The notes beneath the pieces were generated by a model. That model saw nothing but the letters and a program-made list of their open reading frames with translations, made no database searches and was not told the origin of the DNA. Made by a program: the position numbers and the translations under genes. From the NCBI GenBank assembly GCA_002898575.1, contig BEHT01000002.1, positions 62,001-126,000 on the forward strand: a stretch of 64,000 bases of DNA. The letters run 5' to 3'. This stretch comes from a bacterium HR17. Lineage in GTDB: Bacteria; Armatimonadota; Fervidibacteria; Fervidibacterales; Fervidibacteraceae. This document shows, piece by piece, positions 1,865 to 18,993 of the stretch; positions within the stretch are counted from its first letter, which is position 1; every line of letters begins with the position of its first letter.

Positions 1865-4474
1865 ATGGACCTGAACCGCTTCACGGTGAAAGCGCAAGAA
1901 ACTTTACAGGCTGCCCATAGCCTTGCGGTGGAGCGACGCAACCCTGAGCTGACGCCCGAGCACTTGCTTGTCGCACTGCTCCGGGATCGTGACGGCGTGG
2001 CGGTGCGAGTGTTGCAAAAGTTGGGCGTGCCCGTTGACACACTGCTACGGCGCGCTGAGATGGAGGTGCGCCGCCTGCCGCAGACGACGACCGCCACACA
2101 AGTTTACTTGAGCCAGCGCTTGCTCAACCTGTTCACCCGTGCCGAGCAGCAAGCAAAGGAATGGCGCGACGAATACATCAGCACTGAACACTTGCTTTTG
2201 GCGTTGGCTTACGACGACGGTCCTGCAGGGCGCATTTTGCGGGAGGAAGGCGCAGCACCCCACGCATTGCATCAGGCGATTCTGTCGGTGCGCGGTCCGC
2301 ATCGCGTCACTGACCAAACGGCTGAGGAGCGCTATCAGGCATTGGAGCGTTTTGGGCGCGATTTGACCGAACTGGCGCGGCAGGGCAAATTAGACCCTGT
2401 TATCGGGCGCGATGAGGAGATTCGGCGCGTCATTCACATCTTGTCGCGCCGCACGAAAAACAACCCCGTTTTGGTCGGCGACCCCGGCGTCGGCAAAACG
2501 GCTATCGTGGAAGGGCTGGCGCAACGCATCGCCGCCGGCGATGTCCCTGACAGCCTGAAAGACAAGCGGGTCATTCAACTGGATGTCGCAGCGTTGCTGG
2601 CGGGCACGAAGTATCGGGGCGAATTTGAGGAGCGCTTCAAGGCGGTCCTGAACGAAATCATTGCGTCCGAAGGGCGCATCATCGTCTTCATTGACGAATT
2701 GCACACGATTGTCGGAGCGGGTGCAGCGGAAGGAGCGGTCGCAGCGGGCGACATGCTCAAACCCGCGTTGGCGCGGGGCGAACTGCGGTGCATCGGTGCG
2801 ACGACGCTGGACGAATACCGCAAACACATTGAAAAAGACCCTGCGCTGGAGCGCCGCTTTCAACCCGTTTATGTCGCGGAGCCGACGGTGGAGCAAACCA
2901 TTGCGATTTTGCGCGGTTTAAAAGAGCGCTATGAAGTCCATCACGGCGTTCGCATCAAAGACAGCGCGCTGGTCGCCGCCGCCGTCCTGTCCCATCGCTA
3001 TATCGCTGACCGCCATTTGCCTGACAAAGCCATTGACTTGGTGGACGAAGCGGCGGCGAAGTTGCGGATGGAAATTGACTCCATGCCGACGGAGATTGAC
3101 GAGGTGGAGCGGCGCATTCGTCAACTGGAAATTGAGCGCGTGGCGCTGAGCAAGGACAGCGATGACCCCGTCGCCCGCGAGCGGTTGGAGAAGTTGGAGC
3201 GGGAGATGGCGGAGTTGCGGGAGAAACTGGAAGCGCTCAAGGCGCAATGGCAAACGGAACGGGACATCATTCAACGCATCCGCCAACTCAAGGAGCAAAT
3301 TGAGCAAACCCGCTTTGAAATTGAGCGTGCCGAGCGCGAATATGACCTGAACCGCGCCGCCGAGTTGCGCTACGGGCGTTTGCCCGAGTTGCAAAAGCGA
3401 CTGCAAGAGGAAGAGCAACGCCTCGCTGAAATCCAGAAGAACGGGCGGCTGCTCAAGGAGGAAGTGGACGAAGAGGACATCGCCGAGGTCGTGAGCAAGT
3501 GGACGGGCATCCCTGTCCATCGGTTGATGGAAACGGAAGCCGAAAAACTGCTGCACATGGAAGAGCGGCTCAAGCGCCGCGTCGTCGGGCAAGACCACGT
3601 CATTGAAATTGTCGCCAACGCCGTTCGGCGCGCCCGCGCGGGGCTGCAAGACCCGAACCGCCCCATCGCCAGTTTCATCTTCGTCGGTCCGACAGGCGTC
3701 GGCAAAACGGAGTTGGCGAAAGCGCTGGCGGAGTTCCTGTTTGACGACGAGCGGGCAATGATTCGCATTGACATGAGCGAGTATCAGGAGCGCCACAGCG
3801 TCGCGCGGTTAATCGGTGCACCGCCCGGTTATGTCGGCTACGAGGAAGGTGGGCAACTGACCGAAGCGGTAAGGCGGCGCCCTTACAGCGTCGTGCTCTT
3901 TGATGAGATTGAGAAGGCGCATCCCGAGGTGTTCAATGTCCTGCTGCAAGTGCTGGACGACGGGCGCTTGACAGACGGGAAAGGGCGCACTGTGGACTTC
4001 CGCAACACCCTCATCATCATGACCAGTAATATCGGGACGGAGTTCATCACGGAGTTTGACACCCCCGAACGCATCCGCGAAAAGGTTTGGGACGCGCTGC
4101 GGCGCGCTTTCCGCCCCGAATTTCTTAACCGCATTGACGAGGTGATTGTCTTCAACCGCTTGACAAAAGAGCACATCCAGCAAATCGTGGACTTGCAGTT
4201 TGAGCGGCTCAAGCAGCGCCTTGCCGACAAGCGGGTCACTTTGGAGTTGGTCGACAGGGCGCGGGCGAAGTTGGCGGAGTTGGGCTACGACCCGACTTTC
4301 GGGGCACGCCCGTTGCGCCGCACGATGGAGCGCCATATCGCCAACCCGTTGGCGAAGATGGTCATCAGCGGACAAATCAAAGAGGGTGACCATGTGCGCA
4401 TTGACTATGACGCGCAGCAAGGCGAGTTCACCTTTACCGTCACACCGCGCGCGGAGGTTATCGCAGCGGCGTGA
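1865..4474 (+). CDS. clpB: ATP-dependent chaperone ClpB (protein disaggregase)
   Basis: ClpB is a hexameric AAA+ disaggregase that works with DnaK to rescue aggregated proteins in the cytoplasm. The product has 869 residues, normal for the family. Order: N-terminal Clp_N repeats (1-145), first AAA module with Walker A GDPGVGKT (205-212) and Walker B FIDELH, a long coiled-coil middle domain (about 400-530) rich in E/R/K, second AAA module with GPTGVGKT (from 608), and the C-terminal D2-small domain. ATG 1865 is chosen over an upstream in-frame start at 1808 because homologues begin at MDLNRFT and GAGGTGAC precedes it. The gene stands alone; no hrcA, dnaK or CIRCE lies nearby. Confidence 0.97.
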
Positions 4475-4572
4475 CAAGGGTCGGGAAGCGCGGGCATCGT
4501 CTCTCCCGATTGTCGTAAGTTGGTGGCTCAGCGAGGGCTGAACCCGCCGGTGATGTCCGATGGGCACCGCTG

Positions 4573-4605
4573 GGTTGAAGAATGAGGTTTGCTTGGAAGG
4601 CGGCT
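4573..4605 (+). repeat. Partial, degenerate piece of the dispersed repeat
   Basis: The stretch GTTGAAGAATGAGGTTTGCT and the following GGAAGGCGGCTCCTTTGA match the left third of the element at 4640-4745, without the closing half of hairpin 1. It is read as a partial duplicate or decayed copy. Confidence 0.5.
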
Positions 4606-4639
4606 CCTTTGATTACACCGAAGTGCGCTCACCGAGCAA

Positions 4640-4745
4640 GTTGAAGAATGGGGTTTGGTCGGAGGGCGGCTCTCCTGAGCCGCCGAACAATGACATGAAA
4701 CCGTAAGGGCAAGTCAGGCGACGAGCCCCCTAAGGCACTGCCGTA
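4640..4745 (+). repeat. Dispersed double-hairpin repeat, copy 2
   Basis: This 106-nt copy has hairpin 1 identical to copy 1 (stem GGCGGCTC/GAGCCGCC, loop TCCT). Hairpin 2 is degraded (AGGGCAAGTCAGGCGACGAG), so the loop complementarity is weakened. It ends with the shared GGCACTGCCGTA. It lies between clpB and the leu promoter with no gene fragment beside it. Confidence 0.85.
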
Positions 4746-4820
4746 AAGGAAAAATTCAACAAAGCAGATGGGCGCACCTTACCAGATAAGGGCGTTCTAA
4801 CAAACGCTCCCCCTGTCACC

Positions 4821-4849
4821 TTGACATGGAAGGCAAGTCGTGCCAAAAT
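4821..4849 (+). promoter_or_regulatory. Putative sigma-70-type promoter of the leu leader and leuA
   Basis: A perfect -35 hexamer TTGACA (4821-4826) is followed after 17 nt by CAAAAT (4844-4849), four of six matches to TATAAT. The start of transcription would be near 4857, about 20 nt before the leader peptide and 240 nt before leuA. Confidence 0.55.
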
Positions 4850-4857
4850 GACGGGGT

Positions 4858-5004
4858 GACAGGGGGGCAACTTGCGATGGCACACCTTTTGGTCTGGAAA
4901 GATTTCGGTGCTTGTGCGCCCGCAGGTGACCGCGCTGCGGTGTTGCCCCTTGCTGTCCTCCTACGGCTATTCCTATCGGTCGGGCGCTGACCCTGCCCGA
5001 CCGA
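4858..5004 (+). promoter_or_regulatory. Candidate leucine attenuator with competing RNA stems
   Basis: Three pairings can be drawn in the leader. (a) GACAG 4858-4862 and GGGGCAAC 4864-4871 pair with CTGTC 4953-4957 and GTTGCCCC 4942-4949. (b) GCCC 4918-4921 and GACCG 4928-4932 pair with CGGTC 4977-4981 and GGGC 4982-4985, an antiterminator-like option. (c) A perfect 10-bp hairpin 4976-4985/4995-5004 has a 9-nt loop. Stem (b) excludes stem (c). No strong U-run follows stem (c), only a T-rich stretch, so termination could be weak or factor-dependent. Confidence 0.5.
4877..4990 (+). CDS. Putative leucine leader peptide (37 residues)
   Basis: A short open frame upstream of leuA starts at ATG 4877, preceded by a G-rich stretch (4862-4867), and stops at TGA 4988-4990. 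Its second half reads [16 protein letters not shown], with six Leu and three Val in 16 residues. Three of these Leu codons are CTA, which seems rare in the neighbouring genes. The stop codon falls in the loop of a perfect 10-bp hairpin. These are hallmarks of leader peptides in leu operon attenuators such as that of enterobacterial leuABCD. No protein function is expected beyond sensing charged tRNA-Leu through ribosome position. Codon bias and placement are seen; the regulatory role is inferred. Confidence 0.6.
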
Positions 5005-5099
5005 GCGACCCCATTTCTGTTTTCCCTCACACACGGTGCGTTCTTGCCGCCACATCGTCTCCTTGCCCCACACTCTTTTTCCGAAGGAGGCTGAGACCG

Positions 5100-6671
5100 A
5101 TGGCGCGCCATATCGCCATCTTTGACACGACGCTGCGCGACGGCGAGCAATCGCCGGGCGTCAGTTTGATGCAACATGAGAAGTTGGAAATCGCTAAGCA
5201 ACTGGCGCGGTTGGGCGTGGATGTCATTGAAGCAGGCTTCCCCATCGCGTCGCCAGGTGAAGCCGCTGCCGTCCAATTGATTGCGGAGCAAGTCGGTACC
5301 GCCGACGGTCCCGTCATCGCAGCGCTTTCACGGGCTGTCAAGCAGGACATTGAGGTGGCGGGTGAAGCCTTGAGACCAGCCCAAAAGCGGCGCATTCACA
5401 CCTTCATCGCCACCAGCGACATCCATCTGCAATACAAACTCCGTATGACCCGCGAGCAAGTGTTGGACGCCGCTATCCAAGCCGTCAAATGGGCGCGCAA
5501 TTACACTGACGATGTGGAGTTCAGCGCCGAAGACGCGACCCGCAGCGACCCTGACTTTCTCTGCCAAGTCTTTGAAGCCGCCATTGACGCGGGCGCCACA
5601 ACTATCAACATCCCCGACACCGTTGGCTACGCCTTGCCGCACGAGTTTGGGCAATTGGTGCGGACTGTATTTGAGAAAGTGCCCAACATCGGCAAGGTGC
5701 AATTTGTCAGCGTCCATTGCCACAACGATTTGGGTTTAGCGGTCGCCAACTCGTTGGCGGGCGTGATGGCGGGCGCTAACCAGGTGGAGTGCACCATCAA
5801 CGGCATCGGCGAACGGGCAGGCAACGCTAGCCTTGAGGAAGTCGTCATGGCGATCTACTGTCGCGGGCAAGTGTTGGACTGCTATACCCAAATCCGCCAC
5901 GACCAAATCATCCGCACCAGCCGTTTGGTCAGCGAACTGACGGGGATGCCCGTTCAACCCAACAAAGCCATCGTCGGCGCCAACGCCTTCCGACACGAAT
6001 CGGGCATCCACCAACACGGCGTCTTGAGCAACCCATTGACTTACGAAATCATTGACCCGAAAGTTGTGGGGTTACCTGGCAGCGGTATCGTGTTGGGCAA
6101 GCATAGTGGGCGTCACGCGTTGGAAGCGAAACTGCGGGAATTGGGCTACGAGTTGCCCAAAGTCCAACTGGACGAAGTGTTCAAGCGCTTCAAGGAACTT
6201 GCCGACCGCAAAAAACATGTCACCGATGCCGACATAGAAAGCCTCGTCGCCGACACGGTGCACGCTGTCCCTGCCGACGAAGTCGTCTACCGCTTGGACT
6301 ACATGCATGTCGTTTCGGGGAAGGGCACCGTGCCCACGGCGACCGTGCGCATTCACATGGATGGCAACGAATTGCTGGCGTCGGAAACGGGCGTCGGACC
6401 GATTGACGCTGTCTACCGCACCGTCGCCAAGTTGGTCAGGGAAAAGCATCGGCTTGTGGACTTTCAAGTGCGCTCGGTCGGACCGGGCACAGACGCCGTC
6501 GCGGATGTCGTCGTGCGAATAGAAGACGAACAGGGCAATGTGTTCGTCGGGCACGGCATTTCACCCGACACGATTGAAGCGGCGACCAAAGCCTACTTGC
6601 AAGCCATCAACCGCTTGGCTTACCATCACCGGCGCAAACTGCCGGCGCCCCAACGGGGCGGCGAAGTATAG
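5100..6671 (+). CDS. leuA: 2-isopropylmalate synthase
   Basis: LeuA condenses acetyl-CoA with 2-oxoisovalerate, the first committed step of leucine synthesis. The 523-residue product has the usual length. The HMGL-like catalytic barrel begins with [13 protein letters not shown] (residues 8-20), and the second signature [16 protein letters not shown] starts near residue 206, giving the metal-binding HxH. The C-terminal third is the LeuA dimer domain that binds leucine for feedback inhibition. ATG 5100 is chosen because homologous sequence starts there and AAGGAGG lies 10 nt upstream; the frame is open further upstream but that part overlaps the leader peptide. No other leu genes follow, so regulation appears to act on leuA alone here. 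Confidence 0.96.
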
Positions 6672-12091: not shown

Positions 12092-13279
12092 TCAATAGAT
12101 GCGCCAGCGGCGCGCGACGAACCCATCGCGAATGTCCCGCCAACTGCCCAGCACTTCATCCACGATATGGGCCACTTCCGTGCGGATGCGATGGGCGGGC
12201 ACGCCCCACACTTCCACATGGACGACTTGCGGGTCGGTGATGGGTTGACCGATCTGGCTGACCATGTAGCAGTAAACTTGCTGCACTTCAGGGATTTGCT
12301 CGGCGATGCGGTGGGCAATCAGATGGGTCATGATGCTGTAAACCTTGCCGACATGACTGACAGGATTTTTGCCTGCCACGGCTTCCAAAGTCATCGGGCG
12401 ATAAGGCGTGATAAGCCCGTTGGCGCGGTTGCCCCGTCCGACTTGCCCGTCATCGCCGTTTTCCGCGCTCGTGCCTGTAACGGTGATGTAGGCGCTGCCT
12501 TCGGTGTCGGCGGTGTTGACAAACACTTCCACCTTGCGCCGCGTGATTTGAGGGGCGAGTTCGTTTTGCACAAACGCCGCCACTTGCCGCTTGACCGTTT
12601 CGTAAACAGCGCGGTCGGGCGTTAAAGCGGCGACGAAGGCTGCGGCGATGGTCAGGCGAATGGTGTCATCGTTGCGCACACCCATGACCTTGATGTCTTC
12701 GCCCAATTGGGGGAAGCGCTGTTTGCCCGCGTCGCTGTTCAAGAAGCGTTCGGTCTCCAAGACCAGCCGTTCCAACTCGCTCAGGGGGGCGAAGCCGACA
12801 GCAAACGAAGTGTCGTTAGCAAGAGGGGGCATATCGTCATCGCGGAAAATAGCCTGTAAGTCGGTGCTGCCACGGCGGATGCGGAACCGCACCTGCACTT
12901 GGTCAGGTTGCAAGTGGCGCACCTGCTGACACAGCCACCGCACGATGCGGTCAGCGAAGGCGCGGTCAGGGTCAATGTGGCGACTATCCCATGCCAAGGT
13001 CGCCCGCCCCACGATGTCCACTTGGATAGGTTCAACGATGTGTCCGCCCCCAAAATGGGCTTCGGCGACCCCGCCGACGAGGACGGCTTTGTCCACATTG
13101 TGGTGCAAGATGGCGCCGACTTCGCGGCGATAGAACTCACACAAGGCGACCGATAACTCTTCGGCGGCACCGTCGCACAACGAGTCGGGGTGCCCTTTGC
13201 CCTTGCGTTCCACGATTTCCACGGGCATCTGTTCCACGAACGGCGTCATACCGTTTGCCACTTGCAAACGCGCCGTCAT
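12092..13279 (-). CDS. mat: Archaeal-type S-adenosylmethionine synthetase
   Basis: This enzyme forms S-adenosylmethionine from methionine and ATP. It belongs to the archaeal AdoMet synthetase family, which is only distantly related to bacterial MetK. The 395-residue product shows ERKGKGHPDSLCDGAAEELS near the N terminus, an HHNVDKAVLVGG segment and a glycine-rich GTSAENGDDGQVGRGNRANG loop. Length and motifs fit the archaeal family (about 400 residues). ATG 13279 is chosen because the strong SD GAGGAGG lies 12 nt upstream and homology starts just after it. A SAM-I riboswitch precedes it, which supports the function and predicts repression by SAM. Bacteria seldom use this form as their SAM synthetase. 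Confidence 0.93.
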   Translation of the reverse strand: MTARLQVANGMTPFVEQMPVEIVERKGKGHPDSLCDGAAEELSVALCEFYRREVGAILHHNVDKAVLVGGVAEAHFGGGHIVEPIQVDIVGRATLAWDSRHIDPDRAFADRIVRWLCQQVRHLQPDQVQVRFRIRRGSTDLQAIFRDDDMPPLANDTSFAVGFAPLSELERLVLETERFLNSDAGKQRFPQLGEDIKVMGVRNDDTIRLTIAAAFVAALTPDRAVYETVKRQVAAFVQNELAPQITRRKVEVFVNTADTEGSAYITVTGTSAENGDDGQVGRGNRANGLITPYRPMTLEAVAGKNPVSHVGKVYSIMTHLIAHRIAEQIPEVQQVYCYMVSQIGQPITDPQVVHVEVWGVPAHRIRTEVAHIVDEVLGSWRDIRDGFVARRWRIY

Positions 13280-13290
13280 TGGCGAAACCC

Positions 13291-13456
13291 ACCTCCTCAA
13301 AGGTTGGGGTGCGAGCGGGGAAGGGCGGAAAGCAGTGCAGGGGCGGGGCAATCCCTACCGCCCTTCGGTCACCGCTCCAGAACAGTGGGCGGGGCGCTCC
13401 CGCACAACGAGAGGAGCGGGACCGAAAGGGCGCAGTGCCTTTGCCCCACTCCTCTC
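13291..13456 (-). promoter_or_regulatory. Expression platform of the SAM riboswitch
   Basis: The 3' P1 arm and following bases (GAGAGGAGTGGG, 13456 down to 13445) can pair over 12 bp, with one G-U, with CCCGCTCCTCTC (13420 down to 13409). This competes with P1. When freed, CTCCTC could instead pair with the SD GAGGAG (13298-13293) or form a short hairpin with GGGAGCG. No U-run follows any stem, which favours control of translation over termination. This is drawn by hand and not computed. Confidence 0.5.
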
Positions 13457-13583
13457 ATCTTTTGCCCTGCGATGCTCCGCAGGACTCAACGCCTTTGGGC
13501 ACCTTACCCGCCAGCGAAAGAATGCGGGCAGGTTGCCGGGCTTCATCGGGCGCGTTCACCCTCCGCCGCTCTTGATGAGAGGG
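13450..13583 (-). ncRNA. SAM-I riboswitch (S-box) aptamer
   Basis: On the minus strand the S-box consensus is almost complete: P1 arm CTCTCATC, then AAGAGCGGCGGAGGG, then GATGAAGCCCGGCAACC, the GGTAAGGTGCC pseudoknot/P3 segment, a P4 hairpin CCTGCGGAGCATCGCAGG, and the closing P1 arm GATGAGAG. It lies about 170 nt upstream of the SAM synthetase start in the same orientation. This is established S-box architecture; binding of SAM is inferred from it. Confidence 0.95.
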
Positions 13584-17138: not shown

Positions 17139-18032
17139 ATGCGAGGGTTCGTCGTTGCCCGCAGCGCTATGCGCATTGAAGTGTGGTTGCCCGACCAGCA
17201 GCGTATCGTCTTGGGCATCCCACGCGGCAAGTTGCTCAAGCAAGGCGAACGCATTTATGCTGGCGATTGGGTGCAAGTGCGCTTCGTCGCGCCCCACGAA
17301 GTCGCCATTGAAGCCGTGGAAGAGCGCAAAAACTTGTTGCCTCAACCGCCCGTTGCGAATGTGGACAAACTGCTGATCGTCATGAGTTGGCGCGAACCTG
17401 ACTTCAGCAACTTGATTTTGGACGGGTTGTTGGCGCAAGCGGAGTTTTTTGAAGTGCCCGTCACCATCGTCTTCAACAAGATGGATTTGGTGCGCAAACG
17501 CGATGCGCCCAAACTGGGACATTGGGTCGCCCTCTACGAGCGGCTGGGCTATCCCGTTTTGCGCACCAGCGTGGAGACGGGCGACGGATTGACCGAGTTG
17601 CGGGACGCGATGAAAGGCAATTTGATCGTGCTGGCGGGACCGTCAGGCGTCGGCAAATCGTCGCTGCTGAACGCGCTGATTCCCGGCGCCCAACTGCGCA
17701 CCGAAGAAGTCAGCGAAAAGACGGGGCGCGGGCGCCACGCCACGACGGAGGTGCGGCTGTTACCCAACCCGCAGGGCGGCTGGGTCGCCGACACGCCGGG
17801 CTTCCAAAAAGTAGACCTGCCTCAATGGGTCGCTTTGGAAACGCTGCCCCACCTTTACCCCGAATTTCGGGGCTATACCTGCGAGTTCAACAATTGCACG
17901 CACACTGCTGAGCCCGGCTGCGGTGTCCGCGCCGCTGTGGAACAGGGCGGAATCGCCAAAGAGCGCTACGAGACCTACTTGTTTTGGCTGGACGCCACCA
18001 GACGGTGGCAGGAGGAGCAAGAGCCCTACTGA
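17139..18032 (+). CDS. rsgA: Ribosome small-subunit-dependent GTPase A
   Basis: RsgA is a late assembly factor of the 30S ribosomal subunit. The 297-residue protein shows the circularly permuted GTPase order of the family: an N-terminal OB fold, then NKMD (G4), then the P loop GPSGVGKSS from residue 167, then DTPG (G3). A C-terminal zinc-binding segment follows (CEFNNCTHTAEPGCGV). The chosen ATG 17139 gives a short non-conserved lead before the OB fold; ATG 17169 is an alternative. The next gene follows after 22 nt and may be cotranscribed, though without an obvious link. Confidence 0.94.
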   Translation: MRGFVVARSAMRIEVWLPDQQRIVLGIPRGKLLKQGERIYAGDWVQVRFVAPHEVAIEAVEERKNLLPQPPVANVDKLLIVMSWREPDFSNLILDGLLAQAEFFEVPVTIVFNKMDLVRKRDAPKLGHWVALYERLGYPVLRTSVETGDGLTELRDAMKGNLIVLAGPSGVGKSSLLNALIPGAQLRTEEVSEKTGRGRHATTEVRLLPNPQGGWVADTPGFQKVDLPQWVALETLPHLYPEFRGYTCEFNNCTHTAEPGCGVRAAVEQGGIAKERYETYLFWLDATRRWQEEQEPY

Positions 18033-18054
18033 ACGACAAGGAGGGACACAAGAG

Positions 18055-18954
18055 ATGTTGCAGCCCGCCGTCACACCGCAGCGAAAGAACGCCCGCTTGC
18101 GAGAACTGCTCGCTCAGCCGGGCATCATCCGCAGTTTCGGCGCTCACGATGTTTTCACTGCCCTGCTGGTGGAGCGGGCGGGATTTGAGACGGTGTTTAT
18201 CGGCGGCTTCGGCACTTCCGCTAGCCTGTTGGGCTTGCCCGACTTGAACTTTTTGACGCTGACGGAAATGGCAGACGCCGTCCGGCGCATGGCGCGCCGG
18301 CTCACGGTCCCGCTGATCGCCGACGGCGACACGGGACACGGCGATGTCCACAATGTCGTGCGGACTGTCGCCGAGTTTGAAGCGGCGGGGGCGTCAGGGA
18401 TCATCTTGGAAGACCAAGTGGTGCCCAAACGCTGCGGGCACTTTGAAGGCAAGCAGGTGATCCCCGCCGAAGAGATGGTCTTGAAACTCAAGGCAGCGCA
18501 AAGAGCCCGCGCCGATACCAACTTTGTCATCATCGCCCGCACCGACGCGCGGGAAGTTTACGGCTTGGACGAAGCCATCCGGCGCGCTAACCTTTACGGC
18601 GACGCCGGCGCCGATGTCGTCTTCATTGAAGCGCCTCTGTCCGTCCCCGAACTGGAGACGATCGCCCGACAAGTGCCCTACCCTAAGTTCGTCAATATGC
18701 TGACGGGCGGCAAAACGCCCGTCCTGACGGCAAAGGAGTTGGAGCAACTGGGCTACAAAATCGTCGTCTACCCGATTGACACGCTGCTGGTGACGGCAAA
18801 AGCCGTGATGGAGTTGGCGCAAACGCTGCAGGAGGCGGGGACGACCCTGGCGATGCGCGACCGCATGGTGAGTTTTGACGAACTCAAGGCGCTGCTGGGC
18901 GTGGATGCATGGATGCACCTGCGAGATTCGCTGGATGACGACCGCAAGGGATGA
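18055..18954 (+). CDS. Isocitrate lyase/PEP mutase family enzyme, methylisocitrate lyase-like
   Basis: The 299-residue TIM-barrel protein carries KRCGH, the active-site signature of isocitrate and methylisocitrate lyases, and the metal-binding DGDTGHGD segment. Length and motif order fit PrpB (2-methylisocitrate lyase, propionate breakdown) better than isocitrate lyase, which is longer. Related members act as oxaloacetate decarboxylases or carboxyphosphonoenolpyruvate mutases, and no prpC or prpD is nearby, so the substrate is open. ATG 18055 follows AAGGAGGGAC. Confidence 0.85.
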   Translation: MLQPAVTPQRKNARLRELLAQPGIIRSFGAHDVFTALLVERAGFETVFIGGFGTSASLLGLPDLNFLTLTEMADAVRRMARRLTVPLIADGDTGHGDVHNVVRTVAEFEAAGASGIILEDQVVPKRCGHFEGKQVIPAEEMVLKLKAAQRARADTNFVIIARTDAREVYGLDEAIRRANLYGDAGADVVFIEAPLSVPELETIARQVPYPKFVNMLTGGKTPVLTAKELEQLGYKIVVYPIDTLLVTAKAVMELAQTLQEAGTTLAMRDRMVSFDELKALLGVDAWMHLRDSLDDDRKG

Positions 18955-18962
18955 AGTGACGC

Positions 18963-18993
18963 GACCGTAGGGGCGAAACCTGCCCCTACGGTC
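18963..18993. terminator. Perfect 12-bp inverted repeat between convergent genes
   Basis: GACCGTAGGGGC (18963-18974) and GCCCCTACGGTC (18982-18993) form a perfect stem with a 7-nt loop. It sits between the convergent lyase and apt genes and could terminate both, but neither side has a T-run. It may belong to another small repeat family. Confidence 0.5.

Follow-up and report, generated by a model that had tools for sequence, protein, structure and literature searches.

A likely leucine-sensing leader peptide with rare, conserved CTA codons runs into a hairpin upstream of leuA in bacterium HR17 and its family

In 2010, leader-peptide attenuation was stated to have been shown in Proteobacteria and Actinobacteria only, together with a new case from the Firmicutes (PMC2965389), and later work has added branched-chain cases from Staphylococcus and suggested the mechanism for several ilvB motifs. 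The leuL leader of E. coli and Salmonella is a leader peptide before leuA whose leucine control codons include the rare CUA (CTA occurs four times in E. coli leuL), with a U-tract terminator that, by its sequence, lies well downstream of the stop codon and with alternative pairings. CUA is in theory the most sensitive leucine control codon (PMC1183508), and a CUA to CUG replacement in Salmonella, in work cited in that paper, lowered sensitivity. Known amino-acid attenuators leave more than 20 bp between stop codon and terminator, and terminators near a stop codon are strongly repressed in E. coli (PMC4824070). In Actinobacteria, the LEU element of leuA has an upstream leader peptide with a Leu run and a pseudoknot whose base stem pairs that run with the leuA Shine-Dalgarno sequence (SD), and short ORFs of branched-chain codons in ilvB leaders overlap the terminator hairpin (PMC1262725); the ilvB-II motif of Corynebacterium has a short branched-chain-codon ORF close to its terminator hairpin (PMC10272879). 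In E. coli pyrBI the leader ORF contains the hairpin, which is kept from folding by the ribosome itself (PMC4824070). Outside Proteobacteria and Actinobacteria, a Leu-rich attenuator peptide precedes the ilv-leu operon of Staphylococcus aureus, with a poly-U terminator 52 nt past the stop codon and an antiterminator fold (PMC5794164).

We analysed the leuA locus of bacterium HR17 (genome G000) within a stretch of 64,000 nucleotides, hereafter the window, whose relevant features are collected in Table 1. A preliminary description of this DNA had proposed a good promoter, a Leu-rich 37-codon frame with CTA at codons 29, 31 and 33, and a perfect 10-bp hairpin over the stop codon of that frame, and all three were recovered. 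The promoter agrees with the consensus at 10 of 12 positions, has TG ahead of its -10 element and is the single promoter-like match within 4301-5700. From ATG 4877 to TGA 4988-4990, the frame contains 8 leucines in its 37 codons, and its CTA codons start at 4961, 4967 and 4973. The hairpin, TCGGTCGGGC-GCTGACCCT-GCCCGACCGA, has 10 perfect pairs (-20.2 kcal/mol) and holds the leader TGA in its loop, with the leader ORF spanning the entire 5' arm.

Table 1 Features of the leuA leader region of HR17, in window coordinates
Feature	Position	Strand	Evidence or remark
Sigma-70-like promoter of the leader transcript, TTGACA-17-CAAAAT	4821..4849	+	consensus match only
Probable Shine-Dalgarno sequence of the leader ORF, AGGGGGG	4861..4867	+	sequence
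Leader peptide ORF	4877..4990	+	C-terminal part gap-free against G001, G002, G003
Control codons CTA (4961-4963, 4967-4969, 4973-4975)	4961..4975	+	last two invariant in four genomes
Hairpin (arms 4976-4985 and 4995-5004)	4976..5004	+	stop codon in loop, no U-tract after
C-rich, G-poor spacer, rut-like	5005..5085	+	33 C, 12 G
leuA Shine-Dalgarno sequence, AAGGAGG	5084..5090	+	sequence
leuA, 2-isopropylmalate synthase, 523 aa	5100..6671	+	TIGR00973, 714.6 bits (cut-off 598.7)

The leader promoter is also surrounded by a 19-nt inverted repeat (arms 4809-4827 and 4848-4866, 84% complementary) with a perfectly matching core, CCCCCTGTCACC/GGTGACAGGGGG, of which one arm overlaps the -35 region and the other enters the probable leader SD. 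This repeat looks like a repressor operator; its 11-nt core is present in 8 copies in the genome, and the repeat was not seen in the relatives compared below.

Conservation was assessed in four genomes, namely G000 and three relatives (G001-G003), two from the same genus and one from another, whose LeuA proteins are 92, 91 and 81% identical. A LeuA scan of genome contigs for further close relatives returned, among the matches listed, only proteins below 60% identity. Upstream of leuA, all four family genomes carry the core CTA-TTK-CTA-NNG-GTC-GGG-CRC-TRA together with the hairpin. The core codons read CTA TTC CTA TCG GTC GGG CGC TGA in G000, CTA TTG CTA CCG GTC GGG CGC TAA in G001, CTA TTG CTA TTG GTC GGG CAC TAA in G002 and CTA TTG CTA CGG GTC GGG CGC TAA in G003. 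The alignment is gap-free between the first CTA and the stop codon, with all length differences falling in the loop past the stop, and CTA is invariant at codons -2 and -4 relative to GTC. The N-terminal halves of the leaders resemble each other neither in sequence nor in length (37, 38 and 26 codons; the G001 contig begins inside the leader, just before the core codons), as is usual for leader peptides. Promoter-like sites precede the leader ORF in G002 (10/12) and G003 (9/12).

We built a covariance model (R1) from the four family leaders and ran it on 291 genomes of the phylum. It matched once in each of G000-G003, upstream of leuA, with E values of 3e-15 to 5e-17; the remaining matches, outside the family, had E values of at least 3.6e-5, and the six inspected were other, ordinary-looking hairpins. 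A dispersed repeat was ruled out by the single match per genome, on the leader strand. A T-box or other Rfam element was likewise rejected: no Rfam model, the T-box included, matched 4700-5150 or any of 20 leuA loci examined across the phylum. A SAM-I riboswitch (RF00162, 52.8 bits) was located at 13452-13581 (-), upstream of ORF 12092-13351 (-). No Trp-rich leaders were seen before trpE, and no reports of a leader such as that of leuA in a related lineage were found in the open-access literature.

Two checks named in the preliminary description, conservation of the short frame with its CTA codons and the genome-wide frequency of CTA, both turned out in favour of its proposal, in that the frame and CTA at two invariant positions are kept in all relatives and CTA is rare. 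Counted over 270 genes in a 464-kb sample of the HR17 genome, CTA accounts for 344 of 113,852 codons (0.30% of codons and 2.8% of Leu); it is the rarest Leu codon, and among all codons in this sample only ATA and AGA are rarer. The count for the window is 36 of 15,905 codons. Of 112,772 five-codon stretches within genes, not one has three CTA codons, and the probability that at least 3 of 8 leucines are CTA is 1.1e-3. The sequence CTANNNCTANNNCTA occurs once in the 464 kb, with both strands checked, and has 4 copies genome-wide; the remaining three are set in different sequence, apparently inside longer genes. In each of the four family genomes CTA is the least used Leu codon (2.4-4.8% of Leu, from small samples in the relatives), and their leuA genes are without CTA. 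A single gene encodes tRNA-Leu(UAG) among five Leu isoacceptors. A selenocysteine tRNA with anticodon TCA was also called by ARAGORN (L235 50-144; G000:C7:75218-75307). At its two invariant positions, the leader carries the rare control codon of the classical attenuator, CUA for leucine. Because CTA is rare, and because the hairpin and core are kept in four genomes and without a match of comparable strength elsewhere among the 291 genomes of the phylum, we consider it very likely that this is a leucine-sensing leader peptide before leuA.

An equally good hairpin arose in 13 of 1000 dinucleotide shuffles of 4475-5100, and in the stem 8 of 12 pairs are without variation among the four genomes. 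None of the four (G000-G003) has a U-tract 3' of the hairpin, which is therefore not a canonical terminator. Pairing of its 3' arm with downstream sequence was at chance level, and that of its 5' arm was inconsistent between genomes. In G000, perfect hairpins are enriched 20-80 nt past gene ends, mostly without a U-tract, and U-tract terminator-like sites were not over-represented in the scanned part (20 found against 25 expected). Such U-less gene-end hairpins are exemplified by a perfect 12-bp hairpin at 18963-18993, just 3' of the stop codon of ORF 17923-18954. Downstream of the leader hairpin, the C-G excess of the 81-base spacer amounts to 0.26, a value that none of the 150 other upstream regions in the genome sample reaches; its 80-nt peak, at 4991-5070, ranks in the top 0.27% of all windows of that length, and the spacers of G001-G003 have excesses of 0.175-0.197. 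The genome also encodes rho, and in E. coli Rho-terminated ends are marked by a GC-rich hairpin without a U-tract followed by C-rich, G-poor RNA (PMC13289151). On the basis of the U-less gene-end hairpins, the C-rich spacer, the presence of rho and the likeness to E. coli, the best inference from sequence is that leuA expression would be lowered by U-less or Rho-assisted premature termination.

Starting from the observed frame, its rare and conserved Leu codons, the hairpin, their register and the composition of the spacer, we infer stalling, occlusion and termination, together with the termination route, as follows. Transcription would start near 4856, and a ribosome would translate the 37-codon ORF. 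When leucyl-tRNA(UAG) is scarce, this ribosome would stall with CTA codon 31 or 33 in its A site, its leading edge would cover half or all of the 5' arm so that no hairpin forms, and RNA polymerase would proceed into leuA. When leucine is plentiful, the ribosome would reach the stop codon in the loop and depart, allowing the hairpin to fold, as it would likewise do were the leader ORF untranslated. With the hairpin folded, transcription would end before leuA, either at the U-less hairpin or through Rho acting on the C-rich spacer. The stalled ribosome itself would be the antiterminator, with no separate one.

The geometry of the leader is consistent with this scheme. In E. coli, the leading edge of the ribosome lies about 15-16 nt from the first base of the P codon. 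With this footprint applied, a ribosome whose A site holds codon 33 extends to 4984-4986 and over the entire 5' arm, and one whose A site holds codon 31 extends to 4978-4980, over half of the arm; with codon 29 in the A site the ribosome falls short of the arm. The two CTA codons that reach the 5' arm are the two invariant ones, and direct masking by a ribosome stalled close to the hairpin, as suggested in the preliminary description, is thus geometrically sound. Because the invariant CTA positions place the edge in the 5' arm, a ribosome starved of leucyl-tRNA would block the hairpin directly, and an antiterminator would therefore not be needed. We regard direct occlusion by the stalled ribosome, coupled to premature termination, as moderately likely. 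Timing is the chief problem for this scheme: while it sits at the leader stop codon, a ribosome also covers the hairpin, and release must therefore be fast relative to the terminating step.

Other arrangements of the same elements were weighed. The preliminary description had drawn a second pairing, between 4918-4932 and 4977-4985, that excludes the hairpin, and with this pairing as antiterminator and the hairpin as intrinsic terminator the leader would be a classical four-segment attenuator. Although the pairing can be drawn in G000 at -12.6 kcal/mol, 28% of shuffles equal it, and its counterparts in G002 (-8.0 kcal/mol) and G003 (-7.5 kcal/mol) are at chance level, so that this part of the description did not hold and the competing stem was rejected as chance; with no U-tract in any genome and a stop codon sitting in the hairpin loop, a four-segment attenuator is improbable. 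Control might instead be translational, the position of the leader ribosome deciding access to the leuA SD, on the model put forward for the LEU element of Actinobacteria. In G000 a pairing of CCTCCT (4957-4962) with AGGAGG (5085-5090) can be drawn, and the leuA SD is predicted to be mostly paired in all four genomes, but no matching conserved pairing of Leu run and SD was seen in G002 or G003. The SD is paired just as strongly when the spacer is shuffled, and each genome has different partners for it; sequestration of the leuA SD is thus unsupported, and we think control of this type unlikely. The leader could also be Rho-dependent throughout, Rho loading on the C-rich spacer once the leader ribosome departs, with the hairpin mainly pausing polymerase or stabilising the short transcript at its 3' end and the Leu codons setting the coupling of ribosome and polymerase. 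A C-G excess that tops the 150 upstream regions and is common to the four genomes, the presence of rho, and a U-less hairpin followed by C-rich, G-poor RNA as at E. coli Rho ends all point this way, but a ribosome stalled at 4967-4975 would not shield the spacer from Rho and composition alone is no proof of a rut site, which leaves this a minor possibility.

Two further readings would deny the leader a role of its own. A chance ORF next to an ordinary hairpin, with no regulatory function, might be suspected from the window, which holds seven further perfect hairpins of at least 10 bp, 8 in total with that of the leader, but the Leu codons, the choice of CTA, the register and the hairpin are kept across two genera. 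Moreover, when we scanned for ORFs of at least 10 codons with the stop within a hairpin of 8 bp or more and the last 14 codons rich in Ile/Leu/Val, the leuA leader was the sole case in 928 kb (both strands), among 49 hairpin-stop-ORF combinations. We hold this reading to be very improbable. The leader region could alternatively extend LeuA at its N-terminus, its frame being open back to TTG 4872 (ORF 4872-6671). This is contradicted by conservation that follows the leader frame and by an SD of its own before every leuA, while the open leuA frame of G003 spans 539 codons only, 16 beyond the 523-codon match; we consider an extension scarcely credible.

The preferred reading, a leucine-sensing leader peptide, can be set beside a locus in a sister family of the same order. 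In G004, leuA is the last gene of the operon ilvB-ilvN-ilvC-leuA and is without its own leader. The ORF upstream of ilvB (L151 1261-1413, G004:C82) is rich in Ile/Val/Leu, starts with MSQRHGKV and ends in ...GSVLSILPLLLAFVLLPA; its C-terminus, ...VLSILPLLLAFVLLPA, is followed by a TAA in the loop of the hairpin CTGCCCGC-TTAAG-GCGGGCAG, and the spacer after this hairpin has a C-G excess of 0.20. Among 31 regions upstream of ilvB, a similar leader was seen in G004 only and in none of the other 30, the -450 stretch being inexact for a few loci near a contig end. Since the leader before ilvBNC-leuA in G004 is one of Ile/Val/Leu, the amino acids of the leader thus appear to follow the products of the controlled operon, the sister-family case being a single genome. 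In G000 itself, ilvB on contig C70 (L244) is partial, cut by the contig end, with a nearby 10-bp hairpin that has a stop codon in its loop and with upstream frames resembling HicB/HicA fragments (by eye only). As a branched-chain leader this pre-ilvB hairpin was rejected, the frame reading, by eye, like the end of a HicA-type gene.

Taken together, these loci could represent a minimal two-part attenuator, in which the Leu codons sit directly against one hairpin that has the stop codon in its loop, nothing but the stalled ribosome prevents folding, and termination is U-less, at the hairpin or by Rho; such a device may be order-wide, responding to Leu before leuA in one family and to Ile/Val/Leu before ilvBNC-leuA in another. 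We offer this generalization tentatively, as plausible but somewhat short of probable. The same rare codon, CUA, in an unrelated lineage suggests convergence on the codon picked by selective-charging theory. If true, a layout that dispenses with both antiterminator and U-tract would be a test of the minimum needs of a translation-sensing attenuator, and of whether U-less hairpins or Rho end transcription in such bacteria.

In comparison with the described systems, the HR17 leader shares with leuL and trpL a short ORF with end-product codons before a biosynthetic gene, here conserved in four genomes. It departs from them in three defining features: its stop codon is inside the hairpin, where theirs precedes the terminator by over about 20 nt, a U-tract is absent, and an antiterminator pairing is unsupported. 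The layout is indeed unlike the textbook four-segment attenuator, as the preliminary description had held. No conserved pairing like that of the actinobacterial LEU element was found, such a pairing being possible, by inspection, in G000 only. The S. aureus ilv-leu leader differs in its distant poly-U terminator and its antiterminator fold. Actinobacterial ilvB leaders resemble the present one in their overlap of ORF and hairpin, but they and ilvB-II have poly-U hairpins, ilvB-II has an antiterminator, and the gene is ilvB. In pyrBI the signal is UTP, sensed via polymerase pausing and not uncharged tRNA, and the terminator is an intrinsic one with a U-tract. A leucine-responsive leader peptide is of a known kind; its occurrence in this lineage and its reduced layout were not found described. 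With an ORF that runs into the hairpin, as in pyrBI and the actinobacterial ilvB leaders, and without their poly-U intrinsic terminator, the HR17 leader would, by analogy, work most like these systems minus the poly-U.
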